DNA of 29,215 nucleotides. It comes from a virus. The notes under the pieces are model-generated. The model ran no database searches. It had not been told where the DNA came from and saw only the letters and a list, made by a program, of their open reading frames with translations. The DNA lies in the IMG/VR virus record IMGVR_UViG_3300031539_000223, positions 1-29,215 of that record, one strand, 5' to 3'. A program made the position numbers and the translations under genes. Position 1 is the first letter of the stretch; the number at the start of each line of letters is the position of its first letter. Below are positions 13,560-18,213 of the stretch, piece after piece.

Positions 13560-13572
13560 GGAGGTATGAGTG

Positions 13573-14718
13573 ATGGCTATAGTATCAACTACAGAAGCTT
13601 TGAACTTTTTAAACTTGTCAGCTGATATCTTTATTGTAGATGACCTACATAAAATTCTTAAGTTTACAAGCGATTTAGGTGGTCCTGTAGATATCATTCT
13701 TACAAATGGTGAATATACAGGAGAGCTTTTAGCAACACATATTGCTACAGTAATGAATGCAAACAACACACTTACTAATACTCAAGCCATAGTTATAACA
13801 GTTGTTTATACCAATGCTACACGTAAATTTACTTTTGACGCTACAGTAGGACATACATTGGCATATACTCATATAGGCAGTACTGCAGCATCGCTTGTTG
13901 GTTTTAATCAAATTCATGTTGCAATACAAGTAATGACTAGTGATGAAGCTGCATATGATCCTACAGCAATTGTAGCTATAATTAGAAATGGAGTGGAAGC
14001 TTGGGTTCAAAATACTAAATGTCGTCGTGCATTTGAACTTACCATATATCGTGAAACATATGATAGTGATGGTGATGATATACTGAACGTGACAAACTAT
14101 CCAATAACTAAAGTAAGAAGAGTTTGCGATAGTTTTATGGATGTAATTATGGTAACAAATATGCTAAAATATACTACAGCTTCGATTTCATGTGACGGTG
14201 TTAATATTACTTTAGAGAAAGATGGAGTAGAAACGTTAATTAGTTTAGCTGCAGCTACAACATTAGGAGCTGTAATTACTGCAATTAATGCTGTAGGAAA
14301 TGGTTGGGTAGCTACTATTCAAAGTACCGATTATGGTGGTTATCTGTCCACGGAGATAATGGATATAGATGGTTTAAGTTGTATTGACGGATATACGGTA
14401 TATCTTGCAATACCTTATCATAGTTTAAGTAATTACAAAGTCAAAAAAGAATGGGGCCAGATAAGTTATGATGGAGGTTTTCGAGAAGGTTCACAAAGTG
14501 TTTTCATAGAGTATACAGCAGGCTATACAGCAGAAACGATGCCTGAAGATCTTAAATTAGCCATTAACATTGTTGTCGCACATTTGTATCAGCGCAGGCG
14601 AGAAGAAACATTTGGAGTTTTTTCGTATCAAACGAGTGAAATTCGTACGGTACTTGAACGCGAACTTCCGCAACAAGCTGAATCAATATTTAGAGGATAT
14701 AGACGCAATAAGTTTTAA
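13573..14718 (+). CDS. Head-tail connector (gp6-like) with two inserted domains, 381 aa
   Basis: The backbone is a gp6-like connector, the ring below the portal: N-terminal STTEALNFLNLS, then YDPTAIVAIIRNGVEAWVQ, FELTIYRETYDSDGD, YPITKVRRV, and the C-terminal helix LKLAINIVVAHLYQRRREE. Two extra domains split it. Insert 1 (about 20-113) has VDIILTNGEYTGELLATHIATV and FTFDATVGHTLAY, a module with the pattern 'T.G.YTG..LA..I...' seen in phage virion proteins. Insert 2 (about 196-265) has ASISCDGVNITL and LGAVITAINAVGNGWVA. Typical connectors are 90-200 aa, so the inserts account for the extra length. The start is ATG 13573 (8 bases after AAGGAGG) rather than GTG 13570. Confidence 0.75.
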   Translation: MAIVSTTEALNFLNLSADIFIVDDLHKILKFTSDLGGPVDIILTNGEYTGELLATHIATVMNANNTLTNTQAIVITVVYTNATRKFTFDATVGHTLAYTHIGSTAASLVGFNQIHVAIQVMTSDEAAYDPTAIVAIIRNGVEAWVQNTKCRRAFELTIYRETYDSDGDDILNVTNYPITKVRRVCDSFMDVIMVTNMLKYTTASISCDGVNITLEKDGVETLISLAAATTLGAVITAINAVGNGWVATIQSTDYGGYLSTEIMDIDGLSCIDGYTVYLAIPYHSLSNYKVKKEWGQISYDGGFREGSQSVFIEYTAGYTAETMPEDLKLAINIVVAHLYQRRREETFGVFSYQTSEIRTVLERELPQQAESIFRGYRRNKF

Positions 14719-15535: not shown

Positions 15536-16213
15536 TTGAGTGCAGTATCGAGTCTGTTACAAAAATTAATATATGAAACACTTAGACAGGAACCTGAGGT
15601 ATATTCTTATTTAAAAGACCCTAAAACAGAGTTTATTGATGCTCCTACAAGTATGGGTGTTATTGCAGATAAAGCATATCAAATAACTGATATAGATATG
15701 CGTTATATCGCTACTGATGCTGTAACAGTTAAAGATGATGGAATAATAACTATTGAACCATATACATTTGATAGAACTACGGGCACTGTAATTTTTGATA
15801 ATATCCTTGCAGGTAGAAACATTACTATTAGTGGTTTTTATTATCCAATAAGAGTATGGGATGAAATACCTCAAGAAAATATTAATTATCCTTATGTAGA
15901 AATAGGAGTAATAGATACTAATCCTGATAAAGTATTTGGTAATAATGGTGAAGAAGTATTTGTAACTATGCATATTTGGATAGATCAGATAGGAGATCAT
16001 CAAGGTAATAAAATATTACAAGACATTGGAAAAGCTATTTATAGATGTTTAGATGCTATGGAGAGACGGAAGTTAAATAAATCACCATTGGCTATTTCAG
16101 AATATACATTAATAATTAATAGTTTTGATTATGGTACAATACTCAAAGATATAGCTTATAGGCAGATGCCAATAAGATATAAATTCTTAGTTAGAGAAGA
16201 CTTAAACACTTAG
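15536..16213 (+). CDS. Tail terminator protein (DUF3168-like) with inserted domain, 225 aa
   Basis: Caps the tail tube and joins it to the head. The family core is split: N-terminal SSLLQKLIYETLRQEPEV, then after an insert VWDEIPQENINYPYVEIGVID, VFVTMHIWIDQIGD, ILQDIGKAIYRCLDA and the C-terminal DIAYRQMPIRYKFLVRE. The insert (about 36-104) contains YQITDIDMRYIATDAVTV, FDRTTGTVIF and NITISGFYYP, a module also found in the 267-aa protein at 16961. The start is TTG at 15536, with GGAG 10 bases upstream and directly after the previous stop; no nearer ATG exists. Typical terminators are 120-140 aa, so the insert explains the length. Confidence 0.75.
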   Translation: MSAVSSLLQKLIYETLRQEPEVYSYLKDPKTEFIDAPTSMGVIADKAYQITDIDMRYIATDAVTVKDDGIITIEPYTFDRTTGTVIFDNILAGRNITISGFYYPIRVWDEIPQENINYPYVEIGVIDTNPDKVFGNNGEEVFVTMHIWIDQIGDHQGNKILQDIGKAIYRCLDAMERRKLNKSPLAISEYTLIINSFDYGTILKDIAYRQMPIRYKFLVREDLNT

Positions 16214-16255
16214 GTGTTAAGTATAAAATTAAAGTCATGGAAGGAGTGATTTCGG

Positions 16256-16945
16256 ATGGCAGAACTCGGTGGACAATTAATGGTAGTGAAGATCGGGCTT
16301 ACGTCATGTGGTTCTTTTACTACTATCAATGGGGTTGATAACGCTACTCTGAGGAGACTTTGTAATATCCTCGATTTCACAAACTTTGGTCACGAATATA
16401 AGACTAGAGGGGCTGGAATTAAAGATACATCAGTGGCTCTTGCAGGAAACTACGATCCTGATGATCCTAATGGTCAGTTGGTTCTCGAACCTGGAGATAC
16501 TGTTTTTGTTCAAGTATTACCTGATGGTTCTATAGGTAAACAAATTGAAATGATAGTCGAGAACTTTGAACAAACTGCAGCGGCTGATGGTAAACAAACT
16601 TTCTCTAGTTCGTTGCAAGGAGTAAATGCCCCAACAGAAGTACCTGGTGCAGCACCAGTAATAGCAACAGTATGTACTATTCCGAATGGAACAGTTACAC
16701 CGGACGTTGCAGTTACAGGGTCGAACTTCAAAGAGGATATTGCCGTAGGAGATTTAACAGTAGGAGTAGATACCACCGGATTAACATTCTCTGATGTTAC
16801 CTATATTGCGCCAAACGTAATTCTCTTAGCATTCACTGGAACTGCAGCTGCTGGAGATGTTACTATTCAGGCAAAAACTTCTGCTTATGATCCAGCTACA
16901 GCACTGCCAAGTAATACTTTGACAATTGTTGTACCAGCAGAATAA
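16256..16945 (+). CDS. Major tail tube protein (probable) with C-terminal Ig-like domain, 229 aa
   Basis: Position between tail terminator and tail chaperones and a beta-rich N-terminal domain fit the tail tube subunit: MAELGGQLMVVKIG, LDFTNFGHEYKTRGAGIKDTSVALAGNYDPDDP, GDTVFVQVLPDG, EMIVENFEQTAAADGKQTFSSSLQG. From about residue 134 a second domain begins (VIATVCTIPNGTVTPDVAVTG and on to NTLTIVVPAE), with the look of an IPT/Ig-like fold that would decorate the tail surface. It begins like the next gene product (MAEL-GQL), so the two may be diverged relatives or share an assembly motif. The ribosome binding site is AAGGAG, 9 bases before ATG. Confidence 0.7.
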   Translation: MAELGGQLMVVKIGLTSCGSFTTINGVDNATLRRLCNILDFTNFGHEYKTRGAGIKDTSVALAGNYDPDDPNGQLVLEPGDTVFVQVLPDGSIGKQIEMIVENFEQTAAADGKQTFSSSLQGVNAPTEVPGAAPVIATVCTIPNGTVTPDVAVTGSNFKEDIAVGDLTVGVDTTGLTFSDVTYIAPNVILLAFTGTAAAGDVTIQAKTSAYDPATALPSNTLTIVVPAE

Positions 16946-16960
16946 GAGAGGTGATTAAAA

Positions 16961-17764
16961 ATGGCTGAACTGAGTGGTCAACTAGCAGCGGTGAGGGTTA
17001 GTGGAGCCTTATTGCTAGAAGTAGGTCTTTCTACCACAGATATCGGCGATGCTCATATTGTGTATCAAATCACTAATGCTACCAAGCAAGTGCTCGATAG
17101 AATTGGAATAATTCGAGTTCATAAAAAAGGTGAGGACGCTGCAGCTGAAACAGGTACCAATACTACGAATATTAAAATTTCAACTCATGGATTAGCAATT
17201 AATGATTTAATTGTTAATACTACTCGTGGCAATGCTGCTCGTTTAGTTACAGCTGTTGTAGATGTTGATAACGTAACAGTAGCAGCAATACCAGCACAAA
17301 CAACCGATGATAATATTGAAAGATGGCCTACTGAACTTGTTACAGCTTATACACTTTCAAGACTTGATGGTAAAGTGACTTATGCAGCACCTGATGCTGC
17401 GAGATTTATAAAAATATCAGGAAGTTATTATCCTATGACAACTGTGGCTTCTGCGCATGAATATAAGTTTGGTAAAGCTGTAACTATTTACGAAACTCCT
17501 AAATTTGGTATGGAGTACAAAAACAAACTTGGAGGTACAAAGTTTGCTTATGGTACTCTAAATCGATGGGATTTCGGTAATGATTATATGGTGATTGCTC
17601 TTACCAGCGGAGTACCTATTGTAATCGAGTTTAAACCAGATCCTAGTTTGAGTAAAATCTTTAGGGTTTGGGCTCTATTCGAAAACGGGGAAATAAAAGC
17701 AGCAGTAGATAGTGCTCAGGACGAAATAGTTTCGTTTATAAGCACAGATGAGTATTTGCAATAA
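16961..17764 (+). CDS. Second tail (tube-like) protein with nested inserted domains, 267 aa
   Basis: Starts MAELSGQLAAVRVSG, similar to the previous protein (MAELGGQLMVVKIG), and ends with a beta-rich region (GMEYKNKLGGTKFAYGTLNRW, VPIVIEFKP). Residues about 31-158 match the insert of the tail terminator: AHIVYQITN near its start and IKISGSYYP at its end. This module is itself interrupted (about 58-124) by a second one with STHGLAINDLIVNTTRG, LVTAVVDVDNVTVAAI and PAQTTDDNI. It is probably a tail tube or tail-tube-decorating subunit; two tail proteins in tandem are less common than one. The ribosome binding site is GAGGTGA, 7 bases before ATG. Confidence 0.6.
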   Translation: MAELSGQLAAVRVSGALLLEVGLSTTDIGDAHIVYQITNATKQVLDRIGIIRVHKKGEDAAAETGTNTTNIKISTHGLAINDLIVNTTRGNAARLVTAVVDVDNVTVAAIPAQTTDDNIERWPTELVTAYTLSRLDGKVTYAAPDAARFIKISGSYYPMTTVASAHEYKFGKAVTIYETPKFGMEYKNKLGGTKFAYGTLNRWDFGNDYMVIALTSGVPIVIEFKPDPSLSKIFRVWALFENGEIKAAVDSAQDEIVSFISTDEYLQ

Positions 17765-17790: not shown

Positions 17791-18213
17791 ATGAGTAAGA
17801 TTTCAAAGTATTTAACTAGACAAGCAATCTTAACAGCGAAGGACATTAAGACAGAGTCGATACATGTTCCTGAATGGATGGATGAAGAAGGTAATGATTT
17901 GGTACTTGTTAAAGGTTTAAATGGTAAAGAAAGAGATGCTTATGAGGCTTCCCAGGTACAAATAGAAGGAGGACAAGTTAAATTTAACAAAGAGAATATC
18001 AGAGCTAAGTTAATTGCTTTGACAGTTGTTAATGAAGAACTGAACTCTATATTTTCTATTGGAGATGTGGAAGCTTTGGGGCAAAAATCGGGAGCAGCTC
18101 TTGCTAGGGTTTTTGAAGTAGCTCAAAAGTTATCGGGTCTTACACAGGAATCTTTGGAGAAAACTGAAAAAAACTCGACCACAACCACTTCAGATATTTC
18201 CTCTACGAATTAG
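17791..18213 (+). CDS. Tail assembly chaperone gpG-like (short form), 140 aa
   Basis: The unshifted product of the tail chaperone gene. It starts at ATG with GGAGG 9 bases upstream. The N-terminal region contains DIKTESIHVPEWMDEEGNDLVLVKGLNGKERDAYE, typical of tail assembly chaperones of Gram-positive siphoviruses, followed by NIRAKLIALTVVNEELNSIFS, ALARVFEVAQKLSGL. Residues 129-140 (after the slippery site) are a Ser/Thr-rich tail specific to the short form. It binds the tape measure during tail assembly and is absent from the virion in known systems. Confidence 0.85.
   Translation: MSKISKYLTRQAILTAKDIKTESIHVPEWMDEEGNDLVLVKGLNGKERDAYEASQVQIEGGQVKFNKENIRAKLIALTVVNEELNSIFSIGDVEALGQKSGAALARVFEVAQKLSGLTQESLEKTEKNSTTTTSDISSTN

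Follow-up and report, generated by a model that had tools for sequence, protein, structure and literature searches.

Two neighbouring tail genes of a virus appear to encode the same domain, interrupted in one of them by a second domain, and this raises the question whether the two proteins do share a module and what such a module would do on the tail. The DNA analysed, a 29.2-kb IMG/VR virus record (referred to as the window), has a siphophage-type layout, with its genes in the order terminase, portal, protease, capsid, adaptor, stopper, neck, tail terminator (TT), first tail-tube protein (MTP1), second tail-tube protein (MTP2), chaperone and tape measure. Identification of the tail assembly chaperone (TAC) fixes the order TT-MTP1-MTP2-TAC-TMP. 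The shared domain is called module A here, and the domain interrupting it the nested cassette. The coordinates of all features are collected in Table 1. The head-tail adaptor of the window is unusually long and matches phrog_442 at residues 285-380 only; additional domains have probably been inserted into the N-terminal part.

Table 1. Positions of the features discussed, in the window and in related or compared contigs.
Feature	Sequence	Position	Strand	Evidence
Head-tail adaptor, 382 aa	window	13570-14718		phrog_442
TT gene, 225 aa	window	15536..16213	+	phrog_176, 4e-13
Module A within TT, residues 29-106, helix 1/strand 1 junction	window	15620..15853	+	TT and module profiles
TT core downstream of the insertion, RVWDEIPQ..., beta1-beta2-alpha2-beta3-beta4	window	15854..16210	+	Profile, model, Foldseek
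MTP1, first tail-tube protein	window	16256..16945	+	phrog_1407, 2.2e-7
Extra C-terminal part of MTP1	window	16646-16945		
MTP2, second tail-tube protein, 267 aa, module A and nested cassette	window	16961..17764	+	
MTP2 module A, half 1, residues ~18-63, YQIT motif	window	17012..17149	+	
Nested cassette of MTP2, residues ~64-122, THGL..ND..VNTTR, five predicted strands	window	17150..17326	+	
MTP2 module A, half 2, residues ~123-160, LDGKVTY...IKISGSYYPM	window	17327..17440	+	
Rest of MTP2 tube fold, residues 161-267	window	17441..17761	+	AF2 strands; MTP1 profile; 8qhs
TAC	window	17791..18213	+	phrog_344, 4.5e-26
Stopper-like protein with nested cassette	L017	2-454		Nest profile
Stopper-like protein with nested cassette	L111	558-1109		Nest profile
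MTP2-in-MTP1 protein	L002	5728-6783		
MTP2-in-MTP1 protein	L005	3809-4855		
MTP2-in-MTP1 protein	L040	850-1872		
MTP2-in-MTP1 protein	L068	4818-5861		
CxxCH bacterial protein	L083	781-2058		
CxxCH bacterial protein	L087	784-2064		
CxxCH bacterial protein	L088	772-2064		

A module profile built from the tail proteins of other phages, without any window rows, detected MTP2 at 3.3e-20 and TT at 1.5e-14 (residues 32-105), while the next best of the remaining window ORFs scored only 0.36. An earlier profile of MTP2-family modules without TT matched TT at 9.9e-10. As TT and MTP2 were the only proteins matched by the no-window profile, the initial annotation was right in assigning one domain to both, and chance is excluded. 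After removal of the nested part, none of 2000 shuffles of the module pair reached the observed score (Gumbel p ~1e-4), so that the aligned motifs are statistically significant; with the nested insert kept, p was 2e-5. Pairwise BLASTP of TT against MTP2 gave 3e-5, but the first half of the module was misaligned because the nested insert interrupts the MTP2 copy. The strands predicted for the TT module (E40-44, E47-50, E64-67, E76-79, E84-87, E96-99) and for the MTP2 module (E18-27, E34-37, E52-55, then the nest, E130-133, E138-141, E150-156) follow the same order, an agreement that is not fully independent because the alignment behind the TT model contained MTP2 module rows. Over distant phages the positions YQIT, E, K, G and Y-P of module A are near-invariant.

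MTP1 and MTP2 are paralogs (hhalign 1.2e-17, probability 98.9%). The MTP1 profile aligns, weakly, to MTP2 residues 1-20 and then from ~93 onward; since it skips residues ~20-93, profile alignment places module A as an insertion relative to MTP1, after the first tube strand. In the AlphaFold2 (AF2) model of MTP2, computed from 36 sequences (pLDDT 85, pTM 0.79; pLDDT at least 90 for the nested cassette), the tube fold is broken by the module at the insertion point and the remainder of the protein forms strands at 159-179, 188-205, 220-224, 234-246 and 254-261. Foldseek returned the T1 tail tube as top PDB match of the model (E 8e-6, in an alignment of low TM-score and rmsd 15), with monocin tubes (8qhs) among the next. 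A tube beta-sandwich is recognised in MTP2 from the AF2 model, from Foldseek matches to monocin, GTA and lambda tubes and from the paralogy with MTP1.

Alignment scans identified relatives of MTP2 in ~60 viral contigs and in a single MAG from Bacillota. When TT or MTP2 was used as a single query protein, scans of viral contigs found no relatives, and an MTP2 match was absent among the phages and among the plasmids searched. In a set of 41 non-redundant rows (window TT, window MTP2 and 39 relatives), module A was present at the same site in 39/39 relatives, mostly at residues ~20-98 of a roughly 200-aa protein, a universality that holds only for the relatives findable, because they were collected via module A motifs and tube paralogs without module A are invisible to such a search. 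Within that scope the alignments identify module A on MTP2 as a regular constituent of a widespread family of tube proteins and not as a local insertion.

The assignment of TT is backed, beyond its phrog match, by a TT-family profile without the window row, which matched residues 99-175 at 1.6e-11; PF11367 reached 22.8 bits, slightly below its cut-off of 24.5. The structure model of TT is of medium confidence (pLDDT 75, pTM 0.54; its input alignment included MTP2 modules) and displays the terminator fold alpha1-beta1-beta2-alpha2-beta3-beta4, which the gene order fits too. Foldseek matched it to the Listeria antigen B/monocin cap and to the GTA, SaPI1 and lambda gpU terminators. Consecutive positions 29 and 30 of the TT profile (which included the window core) align to TT residues 28 and 107, and the insertion is thus a clean stretch of 78 residues dividing helix 1 from strand 1. 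Module A was not found in the TT-slot genes of 30 relatives (115-164 aa; best E 0.58), nor in the 10 TTs (123-142 aa) of 398 Bacillota genomes. A module scan directed at TTs yielded nothing beyond MTP2s and ordinary TTs, and a DNA-pattern search for the module-terminator junction gave one match, which lacked an open frame. The TT-module fusion was found once, in one contig; the TT copy is the oddity and is seen in no other phage examined. The suggestion that such insertions are unusual at the head-proximal tail is therefore apt for the TT copy, but not for the MTP2 module, which is family-wide and sits on a protein that presumably lines the whole tube. Among the structural genes listed, TT also has the highest AT content (GC 0.295, GC3 0.14; window GC 0.378).

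Two explanations of this single fusion other than transfer of a tube-family domain were weighed. An assembly chimera or chance similarity is very improbable: although no second TT with the module was found, the gene is a single ORF of uniform composition across both junctions, the profile boundaries are clean and the module is matched at E 1.5e-14. It is also unlikely, if less remotely so, that the TT copy is a duplicate of this phage's own MTP2 module. The two genes are neighbouring, and a clade of the TT copy with the window's MTP2 module was not rejected in the topology test (p-AU 0.10). In the module tree, however, the TT copy groups with the nest-free module of another contig, L009 (100/91), on a long branch (1.93), and it lacks the nest. 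Moreover, the entire TT gene including its core is AT-rich, so that either the insertion must date back some time or the gene arrived whole.

The second domain is nested in the MTP2 copy exactly as initially described. Relatives without it mostly have a turn of ~4 residues at this site, bounded by 'V..dGg' and 'YTLNRL', and nine MTP2s (window, L010, L011, L013, L014, L015, L017, L111, L114) have a cassette of ~60 residues there. A scan with a nest profile also detected the cassette in two stopper-like proteins, so labelled from gene position and by eye from sequence rather than from a profile match, and in many large tail proteins, of ~800 aa (near residue 487), ~510 aa and 560-570 aa; L130 carries nest cassettes in tandem. 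In L017 and L111 both the stopper-like protein and MTP2 of the same contig contain it, and the copies are 74% and 72% identical, respectively. Searched directly against phages, the nest gave no match. That it occurs in tube proteins, stopper-like proteins and large tail proteins, and in two genomes in a pair of proteins each, bears out the proposed domain shuffling and is good evidence that the nest is an independent mobile beta-barrel cassette. Its HGL..GD motif and strand pattern resemble the endosialidase beta-barrel PF12195. The match is weak (6/7 members, best E 0.0013, under the Pfam cut-off), the window copy reaches ~14 bits against a gathering cut-off of 35, and, unlike in endosialidases, no propeller or enzyme is present here.

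The architecture of MTP2 is already known from T1, whose tube protein gp41 carries an Ig-like domain at residues 16-94 on the outer surface (cryo-EM; PMC11945409). As in MTP2, the first strand of the tube beta-sandwich is followed by an inserted domain, of ~79 residues (PDB 9l0f), but the domain itself appears to be a different one: it is without sequence similarity to module A (hhalign 0.31) and was dropped as a homolog on that value. By eye the T1 insert is nearer to the nest (GDLAKGDYVIV...SITLAGI), yet hhalign gave only 0.08. In T1 the terminator is ordinary, with 132 aa, unlike the TT of the window.

PDB sequence searches with module A yielded chance-level matches except for a weak one to the R4C distal tail protein (DUF2460, PDB 8gtc_G), in which a barrel-like insertion domain juts out from a tail ring. 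In the published structure this domain points outward and makes inter-subunit contacts, and the authors proposed saccharide capture (PMC10276861). Foldseek aligned the TT model with it over 80 columns, fitting the length of module A (rmsd 3.9, 20% identity, prob 1.00, E 0.032); hhalign of module A gave a weak 1.9e-4 (probability 48%), an HMM search 0.0078, and PF09343 (DUF2460) at best 20.5 bits, not reaching its cut-off of 30.4. In contrast to the proteins studied here, the R4C ring lies at the distal end, and the sequence alignment is limited to the second half of module A. In lactococcal 936 phages, one kind of carbohydrate-binding module (CBM) occurs in the distal tail protein, the tube extension and the neck, and two of these bound cells (PMC6669499). 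These BppA-type CBMs likewise are a single surface module reused on several siphophage tail rings; they differ in belonging to another module family, in that the terminator is not reported as a site and in that cell binding was measured. The Ig-like domains of lambda gpV, YSD1 and T5 pb6 are, like module A, exchangeable tube surface domains (PMC8718954), but mostly C-terminal additions, and domain2 of YSD1 is inserted at a different loop.

No free-standing version of module A, of the kind that the initial annotation had suggested looking for, was found; what resemblance there was is partial and confined to a beta-hairpin. A hairpin like the second half of module A occurs in multihaem cytochrome-like host proteins (426-431 aa, with CxxCH motifs; Table 1). 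They were rejected as relatives, as only this hairpin half is in common, and the likeness is probably convergent.

The two tube paralogs are themselves found nested. In four relatives (Brevundimonas phage MaInes, Nitrincola phage 1M3-16 and the viral contigs L040 and L068) a whole MTP2 including module A lies inside MTP1, in a single protein of ~350 aa. The MTP1 profile matched C-terminally in 4/4 of these proteins; its N-terminal match is clear for two (L040, MaInes), and the intervening part matches MTP2 in full. This nesting suggests that MTP1 and MTP2 may share rings or co-assemble, by analogy with T5 pb6, in which a tube domain is duplicated within the rings (PMC11784142). MTP1 of the window has an extra C-terminal part (residues ~130-229), as other MTP1s stop near residue 135; these ~100 residues possibly form an Ig-like/TIG domain and have no Pfam match.

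We consider it most probable (roughly 60%) that module A is an outward-facing surface decoration domain of the tube family which, in this phage, has been extended to TT. In MTP2, module A would emerge from the loop that follows tube strand 1 and project off the tube surface, and MTP2 modules would presumably be repeated along the whole tail. With a copy of the domain placed at the helix 1/strand 1 junction of TT, the cap ring would bear the same domain. In one phage subgroup the nest would have entered module A at a turn, and elsewhere it would have gone into stoppers and other tail proteins. Homology, sites of insertion, distribution and predicted folds are shown by the present analysis, whereas the role and the outward orientation are inferred, the latter from the structures of the T1 tube and of the R4C distal tail; the outward loop in T1 and the likeness to R4C together imply a surface layer, and the likeliest role would be that of an accessory one.

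What this layer might chiefly do, stabilise rings or weakly bind the host envelope, we regard as close to even. A mainly structural module A, which clamps subunits or rings and whose TT copy continues the lattice to the tail top, fitting the cap to the decorated tube, is a tentative alternative. The near-invariant positions over distant phages suggest a fixed contact or core, and there are precedents in the inter-subunit contacts of the R4C insertion domain (PMC10276861) and in the inserted domain of the YSD1 tube, which folds onto its neighbour (PMC8718954). On the other hand, the 30 relatives with the MTP2 module do without a TT module, and the turn that accepts the nest leaves at least that face of module A free. 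About equally tentative is the proposal of the initial annotation that the modules act as glycan-binding adhesins along the tail, a reading by analogy with the 936 CBMs and with the saccharide capture proposed for R4C, to which the weak endosialidase barrel match of the nest would fit. Neither module matched any known CBM family, the Pfam match is under its cut-off, and module A is conserved and not variable across distant phages, YQIT being more in keeping with a structural contact than with a receptor-binding face. The evidence leans both ways: the conserved YQIT core favours a structural role and the mobile nest a surface function. Quite unlikely, in our estimate, is an elaborated form in which the tube is an MTP1/MTP2 heteromer, module A interlocks the lattice and the captured TT module lets the cap recognise the tube like-with-like.

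Surface domains on siphophage tubes are already known, and we did not find a literature report of the same domain on the tube protein and the terminator of one phage. The nested cassette adds modules inserted into modules. Taken together, the nest shared by stopper and tube protein of one genome, the module copy in TT and the MTP2-in-MTP1 proteins make it possible to trace the exchange of surface domains among tail and neck proteins and to see which of their loops tolerate such insertions.
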